NCBI GenBank assembly: GCA_001783715.1
Contig: MFNF01000001.1
Location: forward strand, 372,001-436,000
Direction: 5' to 3'
DNA from: Candidatus Lambdaproteobacteria bacterium RIFOXYD2_FULL_56_26
Lineage (GTDB): Bacteria; SAR324; XYD2-FULL-50-16
Length of the DNA: 64,000 nucleotides
Positions 9,285 to 17,695 of this stretch are shown one piece after another. The translations under genes were made by a program, and so were the position numbers. Each line of letters opens with the position of its first letter. The first letter of the stretch is position 1. The notes beneath the pieces are model-generated. The model was given only the letters and a program-made list of their open reading frames with translations, did not search any database and had not been told where the DNA came from.

Positions 9285-11036
9285 ATGAGCAATGAAAAAC
9301 GGGTGATCGACCTGATCTACATCACCCCGCCCAAGTCGGTCGAAGAATTGGTCGCCGACTACCGGCAAAAGATGGACATTTGGGGCAAAAAGCTCAAGGA
9401 CCTGCAAACCTATTACTTCGAGCAACACGCCGACAGCGCCGGACCGGATGTCCAGGAAGTGTTGGCGATGCGCAACTTTTTGGGCAAGTTTCTCAAGCAC
9501 CGGATCGACTGGATTCTGGAGAAAACCGAGGACCCCAAGCTCCGCCGCCGGTATCTCCAAGTCCTGCCCCCCTTCCACCAAAAAGGGGCGATCAAGACCC
9601 TGCTGTTTCACTTTTTCCAGCTCAAGGAAAGTGAAGACAAAAAAAACGTCCTGTACAATGCCGCCACGGACATAGAAAAGGAAGTCCGCATCCTCTGGGA
9701 CATCTACAAGCTCCGTAAGACCATCGAGTCAATCACCGTCTTGCAAAAGGCCCTGGAAGACCCCAACCCCTTCCCCTCGCTGTTTTCGGTCCCCACCCGA
9801 ATCCAACGACTTGAGGAGCTAAAGACGGTCTTTAAGCTGATGTTCCAAATGTGCATCCAGCCTCAGTTCCAAAAGGACCTGTACAACAACCTGAGCCCTT
9901 CGCACATCAGCCCCGAGGCGATTTTGGCCCGTCAGGAACAAGGGGTCAGTCTGGTGTACCCCCACGTGATCCGCAAGTTCGACTACCGGAACCACTTCTT
10001 TTTCGTCTATTTTTACTCCGGTATGAAGGCGAAGATCGGCGGCGAGGTCAAGGACTTCCGGTTTAACTACCTGGATTTTGAGATCATCAAACAAGAATTT
10101 TTGACCTTCTGGCTCAACAAACGGCTGGAGGGCAACGATAAAAAGATGGAGATCTACGCCCGGTACAAGCTGGGGGACAAAACCCTGGCTGAGCTGATCG
10201 CCGAAAACCCGGCCGACGAGATCGAGATTTTGCAGCAGTTGCCCTATGAGATCTTCAACGACTTGACCGCCCAGGTGAACGAAGAGGTGGCCCCGGAATT
10301 CAAGACCGAAGTGGAAACCTTCAGCGAAAACCACGGCGAGTTTGCCGAGGTTCGCCGCCAGTTTGACCGGGCCAAGAAGGTGGCGACCCTTTCGATCCTC
10401 AAGATCAAGGAACTTTTGAGCAGCCCGGCTCCGGCCCCCGAACCGCCTCCCGAGGCCCCCAAGCCGGTTGCGGCCAAACCGGCTCCGGCCCCCCCGGCCG
10501 CTCCGATAACCAAGCCGGAACCGAGGTTTGAGCTGGTGAAGGTCAAAAAAACCGAAATCGACTTCCCCTACCTGGTCAAGGCGATTGCGGAATTCTCCAA
10601 ACGGATCAACGTGCTCCGTGCTAAAATGGGGGCACAGGCCTACCAGGACTATACCAAGCGGATGACCAAATTCTTGTCCAACACCACCGAATCGGCGATG
10701 ATCCAAAGACGGACCCCCAAGCACGAATGGGTGCTGCCCTACGTGGTCAAGGAGTTTTTGGGCAACGACTTGGTCCAGGAACATTTGGTGATCGTGGGAG
10801 CAGAGGTGAAGGCCAAGGGCCTGGGAATGGGCTACAGCGCCAATGCCGGACAAAACGCCTACCAGTTCAGCTGCTTTTTTGTGTACGGAGTCGCCAACCC
10901 GGACGGGGTTTTGGGCACGCCGGTGGAGCAGCGGCAGGTAAGAGGCAAAAACTTCAACGAATACAGCCCCGCCGAACTGGCGGTCCGAGAACGGTTTTTA
11001 CGTTTTTTTGACTTGATCGACAAACCTTCGGCTTAA
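9285..11036 (+). CDS. Unknown two-domain cytoplasmic protein with Pro/Ala-rich linker
   Basis: I do not recognise this 583-aa protein. There is no signal peptide or membrane segment. The N-terminal region (about 1-385) is charged and probably largely helical. A linker rich in Pro and Ala (about 386-415) follows, then a second domain (about 420-583) containing the motif TPKHEWVLPYVVKEF. The Pro/Ala linker resembles flexible tethers in multidomain proteins. The start is ATG 9285 after AGGCTAGGGAAACAAC. It is followed 45 bp later by ilvD, with which it has no obvious link. Confidence 0.6.
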   Translation: MSNEKRVIDLIYITPPKSVEELVADYRQKMDIWGKKLKDLQTYYFEQHADSAGPDVQEVLAMRNFLGKFLKHRIDWILEKTEDPKLRRRYLQVLPPFHQKGAIKTLLFHFFQLKESEDKKNVLYNAATDIEKEVRILWDIYKLRKTIESITVLQKALEDPNPFPSLFSVPTRIQRLEELKTVFKLMFQMCIQPQFQKDLYNNLSPSHISPEAILARQEQGVSLVYPHVIRKFDYRNHFFFVYFYSGMKAKIGGEVKDFRFNYLDFEIIKQEFLTFWLNKRLEGNDKKMEIYARYKLGDKTLAELIAENPADEIEILQQLPYEIFNDLTAQVNEEVAPEFKTEVETFSENHGEFAEVRRQFDRAKKVATLSILKIKELLSSPAPAPEPPPEAPKPVAAKPAPAPPAAPITKPEPRFELVKVKKTEIDFPYLVKAIAEFSKRINVLRAKMGAQAYQDYTKRMTKFLSNTTESAMIQRRTPKHEWVLPYVVKEFLGNDLVQEHLVIVGAEVKAKGLGMGYSANAGQNAYQFSCFFVYGVANPDGVLGTPVEQRQVRGKNFNEYSPAELAVRERFLRFFDLIDKPSA

Positions 11037-11081
11037 CCCAAAGGCAGTTTGCTCAAGGCAATTTACCTTTTAGGAACCAGC

Positions 11082-12908
11082 ATGACTCAAAAACTCAGAA
11101 GCGCCACCAGCACCGAAGGAAGAACCATGGCCGGAGCCCGCTCCTTGTGGCGGGCCAACGGCATGAAGGACCAGGACTTCGGTAAGCCGATCATCGCCAT
11201 TGCCAACAGCTTCACCCAATTTGTCCCCGGCCACGTGCACCTACACCCGATCGGCCAGAGGGTGAAAGCGGTGATCGACCAATGCGGCGGTTTCGGTGCG
11301 GAATTCAACACCATCGCCATTGACGACGGGATCGCCATGGGCCATGACGGGATGCTCTACTCCCTGCCCAGCCGGGACTTGATCGCCGATTCGGTGGAAT
11401 ACATGGTCAACGCCCACATGGCCGATGCCCTGATCTGTATCAGCAACTGCGACAAGATCACTCCGGGCATGATGATGGCCGCCATGCGGTTGAACATTCC
11501 CACGATCTTTGTTTCCGGCGGACCGATGGAAGCGGGGGTGGACCAGGGGAAAAAGCTTGATCTGATCGACGTGATGATCGCAGGAGGAGACAGTGCCGTG
11601 GGCAACGACCAACTGGCGGCCTTGGAGCGTTCCGGCTGCCCAACCTGCGGTTCCTGTTCCGGGCTCTTCACCGCCAACAGCATGAACTGCCTGGCCGAGG
11701 CTCTGGGCCTTGCACTGCCGGGCAACGGGACCCTGGTAGCCACCCACGCCGACCGTTGGGGCCTCTTTGAAGCGGCGGCCAAACGGATCGTGGCCTTGGC
11801 CAAGGAACATTACCAGGAAGGCAAGCCGGGACTCCTGCCCCGGGACCTCGCCAGCCCCAAGGCCTTTGAGAACGCCATGGCCCTGGACATCGCCATGGGC
11901 GGCTCGACCAACACGGTGCTGCACCTTTTGGCGGTCGCCCAGGAAGGGGAGGTGAACTTCACCTTGGCCGACATGGACCGGATCAGCCGCAAGGTCCCCA
12001 CCCTGTGCAAGGTGGCCCCCAGTAGTGCCTACCACATGGAGGACGTGCACCGGGCCGGAGGGATCAACGGCATCTTGGAAGAGCTTTTGGCCGCAAAGCT
12101 GCTGGACGGTTCCGCCAAAACCGTCTCGGGGGCCAGCATGGCCGAGCAGATTGCAGCCTACAGCCTCAAAAAGGGCAGCCCCAAAGGCAAGGCCCTTTAC
12201 TCTGCCGCTCCCGGCGGCTTTCGGACCGTCCACGCCTTCTCCCAGTCCAACCGGTACGGCACCCAGGATCTGGACCGAGAGATGGGCTGCATCCGTGCGG
12301 CAGGTTCGGCCTTTTCCAAGGAAGGCGGGCTTTGTGTCCTGTACGGCAATCTGGCCCAAAACGGCTGTGTGGTTAAAACCGCTGGGGTAGACGAAAAGAT
12401 TTGGACCTTTGAAGGTCCCGCCAAGGTTTGTGAATCCCAAGACGAAGCGACCGAAGCGATCTTGTCGGGAAAAATCCAGGCCGGGGACGTGGTGGTGATC
12501 CGTTACGAAGGCCCCAGGGGCGGACCGGGGATGCAGGAAATGTTGTACCCAACCACCTACCTGAAATCCAAAGGGCTGGGCAAGGTTTGCGCTTTGATCA
12601 CCGACGGCAGGTTTTCCGGCGGTACCTCGGGCCTTTCGATCGGCCACGTCTCCCCCGAAGCGGCGGCAGGCGGGACCATTGCCTTGGTCGAGGAAGGGGA
12701 CCGGATCAGGATCAACATCTCCAACCGGCAGATAGAACTCTTGGTCCCTCCTGCTGTCTTGGAACAGCGGCGGGCGGCCAAACAGGCCCAAGGCTTCCGG
12801 CCCAAAGAGCGAACCCGGAAGGTTTCCAAGGCCCTCCAGGCCTACGCCTTGATGGTCACCAGCGCAGACAAGGGTGCGATTCGGGATTTGGACCAACTGA
12901 AGGGTTAA
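11082..12908 (+). CDS. ilvD: Dihydroxy-acid dehydratase
   Basis: Fe-S enzyme of valine/isoleucine synthesis that dehydrates 2,3-dihydroxy acids to 2-keto acids. The protein has 608 aa, close to the usual 560-620. Cluster-ligand cysteines are Cys123 in [10 protein letters not shown] and those in the CPTCGSCSG motif (186-192). The C-terminal [20 protein letters not shown] block is intact. ATG 11082 is chosen over an upstream TTG (11049) because it has an AGGAACC ribosome-binding site and matches the family N-terminus ([14 protein letters not shown]). Confidence 0.96.
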
Positions 12909-12947: not shown

Positions 12948-14681
12948 ATGATGCAGATCTACAAGGGCCTTGGGGTCTCCGAAGGGGTAGCGGTCGGAAA
13001 GGTCTTGAAGATCCATTCCGCCTTCATGAACTACCCGAGGATCGAGATTGAGGACGAGTCCGCCCTGCCCTTGGAGGTGGAACGTCTTAAAAAAGCCCAG
13101 CTCCAAACCCAGGCCCAACTGGAAGCCATCAGTGCCGATTCCGGCTCGGTGATCAACGACGAGTTGCGCCAAGTACTCACCAGTTTTCAACTCCTGCTGG
13201 CAGACAAAAAATTTGTCCCGGCGATGATCGACAAGGTCCTGACCGCCAAAATCAATGCGGAATGGGCCTTGATTCGCACCATCGCCAAGCTGGAAGAGCG
13301 TTTCAAAAAAATCGAAGACCCCTACATCAAGGCACGGGTGGACGACATCCGCCAGCTGGGGGGGAAGTTGATGAACAACCTGCTGGAAAAGCCTACCCTG
13401 GACATTTCGGGGCTCAAGGAACCGGTGATCATTGTCTGCCACGATATCAGCCCCGCCGATGCCTTCCACCTCAACAAGGACAACATCCTCGGTATCGTCA
13501 CCGAAATGGGCGGTATGACCAGCCACAGCTCCATCTTGGCTCGGGCGATGAACATCCCGGCGGTAGTCGGGGTTCCAGACGCAACCAACCGGGTCCTGGA
13601 CGACCATTTTTGTATCCTCGACGGCAGCACCGGGGAGGTGATCGACCAACCTTCCCCCGAGAAGATCAACGAGAAGCTGGACAAAAAGGAGCGGCGCAAC
13701 CTTTACCAACTGCAACTGAACAAATTGATCGGCCACCCTTGCAAGCTCAAGGACGGGCTGGTGGTGGACCTGGCGGCGAACCTGGATTTTTTGGCCGAGC
13801 TGCCGGAGATCAAAAAATTCCAGATCCCTTCCATCGGGCTGGTTCGGACCGAGTTTTTGTTTGACCTGGAAAGTGAGTTTCCCACCGAAGAGGAACAGTT
13901 CAACACCTACACCCAGGTAATCCTGGAGTCGAGCTGTAACCCCATCACTTTTCGGACCTGGGACATTGGCTCGGACAAGACCACCAAACTGCTCCACGAA
14001 CTCTCTGAAGAAGCCAACCCGGCCTTGGGTTTCCGGGGGATCCGTACCTGCCTCAAACACCCCGAGATTTTGCGACCCCAGATCCGGGCCTTGCTGCGGG
14101 CCAGCCTTTCGGCCCAAATCAAGGTGATGATCCCCATGGTCACCAGGATCGACGAGATCACCGCCTCCTTGGCGATTGTCGAAGAAGAGCGGGCCAATCT
14201 GGGGATCAAGTCGAGCAAGCTCCAATTGGGCTGTATGCTCGAAACCCCGGCGGCGGTGCACATCCTAGACGACCTTTTGGACCTCTGCGACTTTATCTCC
14301 ATCGGGACCAACGACTTGGTCCAGTACACCTTGGCGGTGGACCGTCTCAACGAGCATGTTTCTTCCCTCTACGATCCTTTCCACCCGGCGATTCTCAAGA
14401 TGCTGGAGTACACCGTACAAACCTGCAACCGCCGGGGGAAGCCTGTTTCGATCTGTGGAGAAATGGCGGCCAACCCGATCATGCAGATGTTTTTGTTGGG
14501 CAACGGAGAGATCACCTTTTCCATGAGCCCCAACCAAGTACTCAAGACCAAACGGGTTTTGGGCAAGGTGGACCAGGGAACCCTCAAAAAAATTGCCTTT
14601 AAGTTCATCAACAAACACAGCAGCGATGAGTCCAACCGACTGGCCAAAGAGTTACAAAGCCAGTATGTTGAAGAAAGTTAA
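12948..14681 (+). CDS. ptsI: Phosphoenolpyruvate-protein phosphotransferase (enzyme I)
   Basis: First enzyme of the PTS phosphorelay: it autophosphorylates from PEP and passes the phosphate to HPr. The protein has 577 aa, the typical length. The phospho-histidine is His193 in GGMTSHSSILARA, the PEP-binding barrel follows with LVRTEFLF and MLETPAAV, and the active-site Cys region is KPVSICGEMA near residue 500. ATG 12948 is directly followed by a second Met, and either could initiate. No HPr, HPr kinase or EII gene lies nearby, so the partner is encoded elsewhere. Confidence 0.95.
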   Translation: MMQIYKGLGVSEGVAVGKVLKIHSAFMNYPRIEIEDESALPLEVERLKKAQLQTQAQLEAISADSGSVINDELRQVLTSFQLLLADKKFVPAMIDKVLTAKINAEWALIRTIAKLEERFKKIEDPYIKARVDDIRQLGGKLMNNLLEKPTLDISGLKEPVIIVCHDISPADAFHLNKDNILGIVTEMGGMTSHSSILARAMNIPAVVGVPDATNRVLDDHFCILDGSTGEVIDQPSPEKINEKLDKKERRNLYQLQLNKLIGHPCKLKDGLVVDLAANLDFLAELPEIKKFQIPSIGLVRTEFLFDLESEFPTEEEQFNTYTQVILESSCNPITFRTWDIGSDKTTKLLHELSEEANPALGFRGIRTCLKHPEILRPQIRALLRASLSAQIKVMIPMVTRIDEITASLAIVEEERANLGIKSSKLQLGCMLETPAAVHILDDLLDLCDFISIGTNDLVQYTLAVDRLNEHVSSLYDPFHPAILKMLEYTVQTCNRRGKPVSICGEMAANPIMQMFLLGNGEITFSMSPNQVLKTKRVLGKVDQGTLKKIAFKFINKHSSDESNRLAKELQSQYVEES

Positions 14682-14704: not shown

Positions 14705-15109
14705 ATGTTGACCCCAGCCCAAGCCACGGCTTTGATCAAAAGCCACCCCAAGGTTGCGATTGTAGGCCTTAGCCCCAAGGACGACCGGCCTTCTTACCAT
14801 GTCGGCCAGTTCCTGGCCCGCAACGGATTCCAGATCACCCCCATCCATCCGGCCCACGACGAGATCTTGGGGTTCCCGGCCAAAAAATCCTTGACCGAAC
14901 TGGCCCCCGGCGAGGTGGATTGGGTGGACCTGTTTTTGAACCCCAGCCGCCTGATGGACCTGCTGCCCGAACTCAAGCGGCTCCGGCCCAAGTTGGTCTG
15001 GTGCCAGCTGGGGGTGGTGGACGAGGCCTTTAATGCCGCCTTGGACGAGGCTAAAATCCCCTACATCGCCGACCGGTGCCCCAAGATCGAATGGAGCCAA
15101 CAAGGATGA
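14705..15109 (+). CDS. CoA-binding domain protein (YccU-like)
   Basis: A 134-aa single-domain Rossmann protein of the CoA-binding family. It has the VAIVGLSPKDDRPSYHVGQFL stretch (16-36) and the VDLFLNPSRLMDLLPEL and VWCQLGVVDE segments. The physiological role of these proteins is unclear. A strong ribosome-binding site (AAAGGAGG) lies just before ATG 14705. The stop overlaps the next start in ATGA, which suggests coupled translation with the chorismate-mutase-like gene. Confidence 0.85.
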   Translation: MLTPAQATALIKSHPKVAIVGLSPKDDRPSYHVGQFLARNGFQITPIHPAHDEILGFPAKKSLTELAPGEVDWVDLFLNPSRLMDLLPELKRLRPKLVWCQLGVVDEAFNAALDEAKIPYIADRCPKIEWSQQG

Positions 15110-15609
15110 GCTTGTTCCCAGGTTTGGCGGAATTGCGGGATTCGATCGACCACTTGGACCACAGCCTATTGCTGCTGTGGGCGGAACGCAACAAATTCGC
15201 CCGGAACCTGCCCCCAAAAGAGCGAGAAGTCCAGTGGCAGGCCCAGGACTTTGTGGGGCTCGCCGCCCAATGGGGGCTGGCCCCGGCCTTTGTCGGCGAA
15301 CTGGGGCTGGCCCTGGACCAAGCGGCCCTGCCGACGGCCTTGGGTGCAACCTCCAACCTGGAGGACCTTTGGGGCAGCCTGATGCGGTTGGACCGGGTGC
15401 TGTTGGAGGTTTTGTCGGAACGGTTTAAGGTGGTGGTACGGATCGGACGGATCAAAAAAGAGCAGCAAATCGCCCCTTTGGACCCTTCCCGGTGGAACAG
15501 CCTGCTGGCCGAGCGGTTGGCCTTGGCCCGGGACCTGGGCCTCAAAGCCGAAGCGGTGGTCCACCTGTTTGAGGCGGTGCACCGTTATGCCCTGCAACTG
15601 GAGTCCTGA
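15106..15609 (+). CDS. Tandem chorismate-mutase-fold (AroQ) protein
   Basis: A 167-aa protein made of two AroQ-like helical repeats (about 6-78 and 84-165). Aligned without gaps to my recollection of the E. coli AroQ domain, the first repeat has R11 and R28 but Glu at the K39 position. The second has R106, K117, D126 and R129 at the R28/K39/D48/R51 positions, but Trp at the R11 and E52 positions. In the E. coli dimer R11 is supplied by the partner chain, so one composite site might survive in this fused pseudo-dimer. Chorismate to prephenate conversion is therefore possible but unproven. ATG 15106 overlaps the previous stop. Confidence 0.68.
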   Translation: MSLFPGLAELRDSIDHLDHSLLLLWAERNKFARNLPPKEREVQWQAQDFVGLAAQWGLAPAFVGELGLALDQAALPTALGATSNLEDLWGSLMRLDRVLLEVLSERFKVVVRIGRIKKEQQIAPLDPSRWNSLLAERLALARDLGLKAEAVVHLFEAVHRYALQLES

Positions 15610-16227
15610 TTGGCATTGCCGCTGTTGATTCTGTTCACCAAAGCCCCGGTGCCCGGCCAAGTCAAAACGAGGCTGATCCCGGCCTTGGGAGCTCAAGGAG
15701 CGGCGCTGGCCCATTCGCTGATGGTCCGGCGGATGGTAGAGCGGCTGCAAGGACCCTGGGACTTTGAGGTCCACTGCCCCGCTGCGGACCCCCAAGTCCT
15801 GGACCAATGGTTGGGCAACCTCCGGTTCCGCCCCCAAGGCCCCGGAGACTTAGGGGAAAAGATGTCCTTGGCTTTTGCGGAGGCCTTTGCTCGGGGGTAC
15901 AAAAAAGTGGCCTTGGTGGGCAGCGACATCCCCGACTTGGGGCCTGGGGAGATTCAAGGGGCCTTTGCGGCCCTGGACCAACAACCCCTGGCGCTTGGCC
16001 CGGCCCTGGACGGCGGGTACTATGCCATAGCCCTCAACCGGCCTTGCCCCGAACTGTTCCAGGGGGTCCCTTGGTCCAGCCCCCAGGTGTTGGCCCAAAC
16101 CCTGGCCACAGCCGCCGCCCTTAAAATCACCCCCACACTGCTGCCCCCCTTGGCGGACATCGACGAGCCCCAGGACCTGCCCCGGCTGCAAGCCCTGTTT
16201 CCCGACCAACCTTGGCTGGCCCGATGA
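15610..16227 (+). CDS. TIGR04282-type transferase 1, rSAM/selenodomain-associated (DUF2064)
   Basis: A 205-aa nucleotidyl/glycosyltransferase-fold protein. N-terminal LILFTKAPVPGQVKTRLIP (4-22) is the family signature, followed by VALVGSDIPDL (about 102-112) with the metal-binding DxP element, and ALGPALDGGYYAIAL. It starts with TTG 15610 directly after the previous stop (a second TTG at 15616 is possible); no ATG fits. The family is named for co-occurrence with a radical-SAM protein carrying a selenocysteine-associated domain. It is paired here with its usual partner, transferase 2, through an ATGA overlap. Confidence 0.82.
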   Translation: MALPLLILFTKAPVPGQVKTRLIPALGAQGAALAHSLMVRRMVERLQGPWDFEVHCPAADPQVLDQWLGNLRFRPQGPGDLGEKMSLAFAEAFARGYKKVALVGSDIPDLGPGEIQGAFAALDQQPLALGPALDGGYYAIALNRPCPELFQGVPWSSPQVLAQTLATAAALKITPTLLPPLADIDEPQDLPRLQALFPDQPWLAR

Positions 16228-16937
16228 TCTCGGTGGTCCTGACCTGCCTCAACGATGGTCCGCACCTGGAAGCCTGCCTCCAAAGCCTTGGGGGCTTCCA
16301 GGGCCTGGAGGTGCGGGTGGTGGATGGGGGCAGTAGCGAGTCCCTGGCCCCCCGGTTGGCCCGGATGGGTCCGGTCACCTTGCTGCATAGCCCCCCCGGA
16401 CGAGCCCGGCAGTTCAACCTTGGTGCCGCCCAGGCCCAAGGGGAGGTGCTACTTTTTCTGCATTCCGACTCCCTTTTGCCCACCGGCTGGCGGGAAGAAA
16501 TCGGGCGGATCTTGGCGAACCCCAAAAACATCGCCGGGGCCTTCTCCTTCAAAACCGACCTGGACCACCCCAAGATGGCCCGGATCGAGCGCTGGGCCAA
16601 CCGGCGCAGCCGCTACCTGCAACTGCCCTACGGTGACCAGGGCCTGTTTATGGCCAAGGCGACCTTTGAGGGCTTGGTTGGCTTTGCCCCGCTGCCTTTG
16701 ATGGAAGACTACGAACTTGTGTTGCGGCTGAAGAAACAAGGGAGGATTGAGACCAGCCCCCTGCCGCTGGTGACCAGTGGGAGAAGGTGGTTGGCTCAAG
16801 GTTTTGGGGCGGTTGGTTGGACCAACTTCAAGATTATCCTGCTGTATCATTTGGGGATTTCTCCAGACCGGTTGCAAAAAATTTACCGCTCCGGTCCCCA
16901 GCAAAAAGCCGTTGACAAGCAACAAAAGCCGGGCTAA
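16224..16937 (+). CDS. TIGR04283-type glycosyltransferase family 2, rSAM/selenodomain-associated transferase 2
   Basis: A 237-aa GT-A glycosyltransferase. It opens directly with ISVVLTCLNDGPHLEACLQSL, then VRVVDGGSSE and HSPPGRARQFNLGAAQAQGEVLLFLHSDS (the DxD-like donor region reads HSDS). GDQGLFM and MEDYELVLRLK follow, with a C-terminal amphipathic or hydrophobic part. The GRARQMN-type motif is characteristic of this subfamily. ATG 16224 overlaps the stop of transferase 1. Substrates are unknown. It is the last protein gene of the run before tRNA-Ala. Confidence 0.82.
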   Translation: MISVVLTCLNDGPHLEACLQSLGGFQGLEVRVVDGGSSESLAPRLARMGPVTLLHSPPGRARQFNLGAAQAQGEVLLFLHSDSLLPTGWREEIGRILANPKNIAGAFSFKTDLDHPKMARIERWANRRSRYLQLPYGDQGLFMAKATFEGLVGFAPLPLMEDYELVLRLKKQGRIETSPLPLVTSGRRWLAQGFGAVGWTNFKIILLYHLGISPDRLQKIYRSGPQQKAVDKQQKPG

Positions 16938-16954
16938 AAAGACGGATCACTTTG

Positions 16955-17030
16955 GGGGCCTTAGCTCAGCTGGTAGAGCGCAACGCTGGCAGCGTTGAGG
17001 TCAGGAGTTCGATCCTCCTAGGCTCCACCA
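16955..17030 (+). tRNA. tRNA-Ala, anticodon GGC
   Basis: A complete 76-nt cloverleaf. The acceptor stem GGGGCCT pairs with AGGCTCC and contains the G3-U70 wobble that specifies alanine. The D arm is AGCTCAGCTGGTAGAGC, the anticodon stem-loop is CAACG-CTGGCAG-CGTTG with GGC at 16988-16990, and the T arm has GTTCGATCC. The 3' CCA is encoded. It lies 17 bp after the glycosyltransferase gene. Confidence 0.97.
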
Positions 17031-17054
17031 AAACCCCCCCTTTCCGTTGGGTTT
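17031..17054 (+). terminator. Possible hairpin after tRNA-Ala
   Basis: AAACCC immediately after the encoded CCA can pair with GGGTTT 12 nt later. The stem is only 6 bp, with a short T stretch inside the right arm, so it is a weak terminator or processing signal. The rest of 17055-17233 shows no feature. Confidence 0.3.
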
Positions 17055-17233
17055 CCCTCCTTCGGAATTCCAGCTGGCCCCGCTCTACAGGTCAGGTTGG
17101 GTCCAAACCCGGCAAACACCGGGGCCGCATCTCCCGTTCAGCCTCAGTTCTCAGCCCTTCGTTGTTTATCCCCTTGCCTGTCCTGAAGCCCCTGGGCGCT
17201 GTCTTGTCCAAAGGCCCGCCGTTCTCCTGCGGC

Positions 17234-17695
17234 CTAGGACTTGGGGGCGGAGAAAAAGGGTTTGAGCCGGTGGGCCAAGGCTTCCTTTTGGATCTCCAGT
17301 TCCAACATCTTTTGGGCCCAACCTAAGATCAGTTCATGGGACGGGTCGTCGGTAAAGCCCAGCAGTCGGGCGAAGTGCTCGATCAGCTCCTGTTCGCTGA
17401 TCAGCAGTTCCCGGTCTTCGGTGGCCACCCGGATGACCTCGTTAATCATCAAAAAGGCCTTTTCAAAGCTCAACCTCGGCAGAGGCTCCAAGGGGCAAAG
17501 GGAATACTTTTCCACCGCCTGCTTTTCCAGCTCTTCCATCTCCTCTTGCCGCACCCAATTCATCGCCTCCCGCAGGTCTTCAAACTCTTCGGCAGAGACG
17601 TGCTTGTCCACCACCACTACTTTCCAGATGGCGGTGTAAAGCCATTTGCGTTCCTCGACATGCAGGTCTTTGATGGTGGTTTTGGCGGTGATCAC
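17234..17695 (-). CDS. TerB-like helical protein
   Basis: A 153-aa all-helical protein resembling the TerB/tellurite-resistance domain: the pattern VVVVDKHVSAEEFEDL (about 26-41) with acidic residues after the first helices and a later RVATEDRELLISEQELIEHF repeat. The paired acidic loops fit a metal-binding TerB-type fold, but no ter operon is present, so the role is unknown. The start is GTG 17695, preceded by a strong GAGGGGGG ribosome-binding site. A second protein of similar plan is encoded at 51890. Confidence 0.6.
   Translation of the reverse strand: MITAKTTIKDLHVEERKWLYTAIWKVVVVDKHVSAEEFEDLREAMNWVRQEEMEELEKQAVEKYSLCPLEPLPRLSFEKAFLMINEVIRVATEDRELLISEQELIEHFARLLGFTDDPSHELILGWAQKMLELEIQKEALAHRLKPFFSAPKS

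Follow-up and report, generated by a model that had tools for sequence, protein, structure and literature searches.

Whether a protein assembled from two fused AroQ-like chorismate mutase (CM) repeats retains two active sites, one or none is the question raised by a gene at positions 15106..15609 (+ strand, as are all features of the window given below) of a 64,000-nucleotide stretch of DNA, here called the window, from Candidatus Lambdaproteobacteria bacterium RIFOXYD2_FULL_56_26, a member of SAR324. The open reading frame starts with ATG and encodes 167 amino acids. The Pfam model CM_2 (PF01817; curated cut-off 27 bits) matches two stretches of the protein (71.1 bits, E 9.3e-20), residues 91-166 best, and relatives display two clear units, so that the two AroQ-like repeats that an earlier note had discerned in this single chain are borne out. 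Repeat 1 (approximately residues 1-74; 15106..15327) is a decayed unit which, judging from the alignment with relatives and from the AlphaFold2 (AF2) model, retains an intact start of helix 1 and is shortened further on; in the alignment, about 12-14 residues are missing where helix 1 ends and in the loop that leads to helix 2. Repeat 2 (residues 83-166; 15352..15603) is a full, EcCM-like unit according to Pfam and Foldseek and is the putative catalytic half. In the CM_2 scan of the whole genome, repeat 1 of the window protein alone scores E 0.8; that it is nevertheless not a chance match follows from the relatives, in which repeat 1 by itself reaches significance (E as low as 4.1e-10). A frame or assembly artefact was considered and rejected, because the fusion is found in 11 genomes. 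We favour, with a probability of about 80%, the reading that the gene encodes a housekeeping chorismate mutase in which two fused AroQ-alpha-like units would constitute a pseudo-dimer with one composite site built from both repeats.

Both repeats of the 11 fused homologues, the window protein included, were aligned with the E. coli enzyme EcCM, after which the site positions are numbered. In EcCM (AroQ-alpha; PDB 1ecm), which consists of the same three-helix unit and employs R11', R28, K39, D48 and R51, R11 serves the site of the other subunit and forms a D48-R11' salt bridge there (PMC12329711). EcCM forms two sites as a homodimer, whereas the fused protein has two units per chain and one intact site, with E52 replaced by Trp and Q88 by Glu. 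Arg11 of repeat 1 (15136..15138), the R11 equivalent and proposed donor to the repeat 2 site, is invariant in all 11 homologues, and so are Arg106 (R28; 15421..15423), Lys117 (K39; 15454..15456), Asp126 (D48, the partner of R11' in EcCM; 15481..15483) and the Arg129-Trp130 pair (R51 and E52 positions; 15490..15495) of repeat 2. Glu166 (15601..15603), at the Q88 position, is Glu in 10 homologues and Gln in one, and the S84 position of the kept site is occupied by Ala in the window protein. The R11 position of repeat 2, which would serve the mirror site, holds Trp89 (15370..15372) in the window protein, Gly in G003, Glu in G010 and Arg in the other eight. The alignment thus agrees with the residue assignments made previously, in which Arg11 was equated with R11 of repeat 1, and Trp89, Arg106, Lys117, Asp126, Arg129 and Trp130 with R11, R28, K39, D48, R51 and E52 of repeat 2.

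The invariant columns are divided between the halves: R11, I14, D15 and D18, plus F72, in repeat 1, and L25, R28, I35, G36, K39, D48, R51, W52 and H81 in repeat 2 (Fisher p 0.005, a post hoc value computed once the pattern had been seen). When R11 is counted from repeat 1, the set R11', R28, K39 and R51 together with D48 is complete in 11/11 proteins. Given that R11 of EcCM serves the other subunit and is held by D48, the fused proteins keep everything that one site, formed by repeat 2 and the first part of helix 1 in repeat 1, needs. Mechanistically, two AroQ-alpha-like units have been joined into one chain, which would fold on itself into a pseudo-dimer mimicking the intertwined EcCM homodimer; the first half of helix 1 in repeat 1 would then bring Arg11, predicted to be held by Asp126, to a repeat 2 pocket consisting of Arg106, Lys117, Asp126, Arg129 and Glu166.

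The same pattern of conservation speaks for the single composite site put forward in the earlier note, since the mirror site is decayed in every homologue. The absence of Lys39 (Glu instead) from the reverse site, claimed there, holds too, and this site is even worse off: D48 and Q88 are absent in all 11 members, and repeat 1 of the window protein is shortened. R11 of repeat 2 and K39 of repeat 1 are both lost in the window protein, G003 and G010 and both kept in the other eight homologues. On the whole-protein tree, each of the two losses corresponds to two changes; the coupling between them is suggestive only, because it rests on about two events. Decay of the mirror site was probably stepwise, D48 and Q88 being lost first across the whole group, and the other two residues subsequently disappearing twice, once in the lineage of the window protein.

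The strong shortening of repeat 1 and its weak score in the window protein would also fit a scenario in which repeat 2 pairs with another repeat 2 and functions with no Arg at position R11, repeat 1 being a remnant. However, R11, I14, D15 and D18 stay invariant in a repeat 1 that otherwise decays, and a useless remnant would have lost Arg11 as well. In the enzyme *MtCM, the equivalent of R11' is, we assume, R134. An Arg at this place is needed for the activity of *MtCM, kcat/Km being 17 in the R134L variant versus 300,000 (PMC12329711), and we consider the remnant scenario very improbable. Certain observations do count against the composite site: R28 and E27 of repeat 1, unneeded by a single composite site, are kept in 10 of the 11 homologues, and the hydroxyl contact usually made at position 52 is lost with Trp; packing alone could account for the conservation of the N-terminal helix 1 motif. 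The eight relatives that possess R11 of repeat 2 as well as R28 and K39 of repeat 1, but lack D48 and Q88, raise the speculative and rather unlikely possibility that the remnant of the mirror site serves as a pocket in which a carboxylate effector, for example prephenate, Phe or Tyr, would bind.

The earlier note had reservations about activity, reasoning that Trp130 in place of E52 could mean its loss. Glu at this position, which is not strictly a defining feature, is replaced by Trp in all 11 fused homologues, and the R51-W52 pair followed by H81 also marks 21/21 CM domains of DAHP synthase-mutase (DAHPS-CM) fusions of the Prevotella/Porphyromonas type, from the lineage of G113 (L013, L079-L098). 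These domains resemble repeat 2 in this signature but differ in that a single CM domain lies behind the DAHP synthase, whereas the fused protein has two CM domains and no synthase. The CM domain is nearly always the sole CM_2 of the respective genomes, a single CM_2 being present in 39/40 genomes with a CM_2 hit in the G113 lineage. *MtCM carries Val at position 52 and has a kcat/Km of 300,000, which the V73E substitution lowers to 24,000 (PMC12329711). Since Trp is invariant here and in the DAHPS-CM fusions and *MtCM is active with Val, the missing Glu52 is no argument for lost function; loss of activity through Trp130 was therefore rejected, Trp being a conserved feature of a subtype.

The genomic complement points in the same direction. 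A CM_2 scan of the whole window genome (97% complete) revealed no other AroQ, nor was AroH found in it. Chorismate synthase is present, as is a prephenate dehydratase (PDT), which is stand-alone and devoid of a mutase domain; the check for another aroQ or pheA, proposed earlier, revealed no second mutase. PDT was also found in 9/10 relatives. The TyrA protein (L078:7274-8122, +), a prephenate dehydrogenase, aligns to the T-protein model from position 98 onward only and is likewise without a mutase domain; it is most similar to the dehydrogenase part of the CM-PDH T-protein. The combination of PDT, a mutase-less TyrA and chorismate synthase with the lack of any other AroQ or AroH makes the fused protein very probably the working mutase, supplying phenylalanine and tyrosine synthesis.

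That the protein is instead an inactive or regulatory AroQ-like pseudoenzyme, with Phe and Tyr being made through another, unrecognized mutase, might be argued from Trp at position 52, Ala at position 84, the ruined mirror site and the lack of an aromatic operon around the gene. Nevertheless, the invariance of R11, R28, K39, D48 and R51, the absence of another AroQ or AroH, the full activity of *MtCM with Val at position 52 and its slowing by V73E (PMC12329711), and the occurrence of W52 in what are nearly always the only CM_2 domains of their genomes together make this quite improbable. A PchB-like isochorismate-pyruvate lyase without mutase activity was considered as well: PchB also lacks the E52 carboxylate (Val55), the phmmer search produced a weak match to PchB (E 0.009), and the window genome encodes two chorismate-binding enzymes. 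Yet the D48 position is Ala in PchB (PMC12329711) but Asp in all 11 fused homologues, the better phmmer matches are mutases, the PchB model NF005475 scores 43 bits against a cut-off of 126, and the genome would then be left without any mutase. A lyase is thus extremely improbable, and it was rejected on the Asp at D48 and the scores. Taken together, the conserved site and the gene complement favour a working mutase, the catalytic activity of which we infer.

Structure predictions are compatible with the composite site lying within a single chain. The AF2 model of the window protein is of moderate confidence (pLDDT 76, pTM 0.76), with helices spanning residues 5-32, 46-55 and 60-72 in repeat 1, whereas that of one relative (pLDDT 85, pTM 0.83) comprises six helices arranged in two sets of three. 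A single repeat-sized unit superimposes on 1ecm with an rmsd of approximately 1 Å over 82-86 columns (Foldseek; 1.1 Å over 82). The best whole-chain matches in the PDB are single-chain chorismate mutases, namely, AroQ-gamma enzymes (2fp2, 2gbb) and an AroQ-beta-type enzyme from Ustilago, with TM-scores of about 0.5-0.7 and modest E values (~0.01). The same residues could, however, also be brought together between chains, in a homodimer where each repeat 1 pairs with the repeat 2 of its partner chain, generating two identical sites with the same chemistry. AroQ-alpha enzymes are intertwined dimers (PMC12329711; PMC10520331), the linker of the window protein is short, with about 12 residues between helices in the AF2 model, and conservation is blind to the distinction between cis and trans. 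Conversely, the single-chain models, which are monomer models only, are already compact (pTM 0.76-0.83) and closest to single-chain mutases. We regard pairing between chains as unlikely, although a more serious contender than a lyase or a pseudoenzyme, and the intramolecular pairing, with Arg11 placed at the repeat 2 pocket, as the probable arrangement.

Assignment of the fused protein to the known AroQ subclasses is not straightforward. AroQ-alpha enzymes are defined by one three-helix unit per chain, a homodimer and two sites, whereas the fused protein has two units, and one of its sites has decayed. The yeast enzyme ScCM/Aro7 (AroQ-beta) is similar in having one site per chain, with the R11 donor coming first and the catalytic half second, which is the layout of the fused protein. 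We know of no internal repeat recognizable by sequence in ScCM, and its E246 presumably corresponds to a Glu at the Q88 position, as in the fused protein. In ScCM, R16 resides in the N-terminal part, and R157, K168, N194 and E198 in the C-terminal part (PMC5986790). It differs in being eukaryotic and about 256 aa long, with 12 helices per dimer, and it is allosteric (PMC10520331); allosteric control by Trp and Tyr is a mark of the AroQ-beta subclass. No AroQ-beta model was found among the NCBIfam matches up to E 10, and comparison of a whole-chain profile against the PDB recovered no yeast or plant mutase up to E 1. The AroQ-gamma enzymes (*MtCM, 2fp2; Y. pestis, 2gbb) are likewise single-chain pseudo-dimers of similar length with one site but, in contrast to the fused protein, are exported and have the catalytic part first; the repeat 2 profile (positions 132-186) falls on residues 10-67 of the AroQ-gamma chains, so that the order is reversed. 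Inspection of the N-termini by eye revealed no hydrophobic start resembling a signal peptide, all 11 homologues opening with charged residues within helix 1 or immediately ahead of it, and the AroQ-gamma model TIGR01806 yields 20.2 bits against a cut-off of 74.15. AroQ-gamma membership was hence rejected on order, absent signal and score. The protein is most aptly regarded as a novel AroQ variant, apparently AroQ-beta-like in layout without a sequence match to that subclass.

The fusion is restricted to a single bacterial order. The fused gene is the sole CM_2 (AroQ) gene in all 10 genomes of the host's GTDB family and, in a very divergent form, in G010, which belongs to the same order but to a sister family. 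The G010 mutase (L072:4015-4566, -), encoded in an AT-rich genome of 1.5 Mb, keeps R11 of repeat 1 along with R28, K39, D48, R51 and W52, and Gln occupies its Q88 position. Related loci carry the labels SAR324 cluster or Deltaproteobacteria, and two further families of the same class (f3 and f4) encode ordinary single-domain mutases in frames of about 90-170 aa. Outside SAR324, two CM_2 hits were detected in 16/331 genomes, in none of them within one frame, in a search that a first repeat as decayed as that of the window protein would escape. In a tree of the repeats, all repeat 1 copies form one group (91/83) and 10/11 repeat 2 copies another (98/98), although its 89 columns do not distinguish sister repeats from two different mutases that became joined. 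As the copies of each repeat group together in this manner, the distribution is most simply explained by one fusion event followed by vertical descent.

The gene resides in a conserved neighbourhood unrelated to an aromatic operon. Directly upstream is a CoA_binding_2 protein (14705..15109; Pfam), the stop codon of which is overlapped by the mutase ATG over four bases (ATGA), and the mutase stop codon is immediately followed by the TTG that opens the next gene, which encodes a CofC-like nucleotidyl- or glycosyltransferase (DUF2064/TIGR04282; 15610..16227; profile matches) and is followed by a family 2 glycosyltransferase (GT2; TIGR04283; 16212..16937; profile match). The location between a CoA-binding protein and two transferases had thus been read correctly. 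The TIGR04282 and TIGR04283 pair (15610-16937), named for arsenosugar biosynthesis, is kept in several relatives. Further upstream lie conserved genes for a PTS enzyme I family protein (phosphoenolpyruvate-protein phosphotransferase; 12948..14681; profile matches), for the dihydroxy-acid dehydratase IlvD (ilvD; 11049..12908; NF009103, 1033 bits) and for a 583-aa protein with a proline-rich stretch (9285-11036) that matches no curated family and has sub-threshold Pfam matches only. Likely homologues of the latter upstream of ilvD in G003, G005 and G001 mark it as a conserved SAR324 gene. The order 583-aa protein, ilvD, PTS enzyme I, CoA_binding_2, mutase, DUF2064, GT2 is kept in these three genomes, and a CoA_binding_2-like gene of 131-157 aa directly precedes the mutase in 7/7 relative loci examined, the identities of the neighbours in relatives being judged from their sequences rather than by profile scan. 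The mutase gene is part of a series of genes all on one strand; from ptsI to the GT2 gene, no terminator-like site was detected on the + strand, and a promoter scan of the region yielded nothing useful. Downstream, the open reading frame at 16952-17326 is probably no protein gene, since a tRNA-Ala (ggc) gene lies within it at 16955-17030.

Yeast chorismate mutase is proposed to have originated through duplication and fusion of an EcCM-like dimer. A search of the open-access literature, with subscription papers outside its scope, found no report of a SAR324 mutase or of a tandem bacterial AroQ. The composite-site mutase considered here would represent a natural step in enzyme evolution that has until now been deduced mainly from the yeast enzyme. 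In these uncultured SAR324 bacteria, the repeats are plain by sequence and the homologues stand at different stages of the loss of the second site. Owing to these plain repeats, the fusion restricted to one order and the graded site loss, natural proteins could serve to test the individual steps by which a homodimer with two sites became a pseudo-dimer with one. Should the effector-pocket reading be true, SAR324 would retrace in bacteria, through intermediates that are still alive, the route suggested for the allosteric yeast enzyme, and the window protein would represent a later stage, at which the pocket has been discarded.
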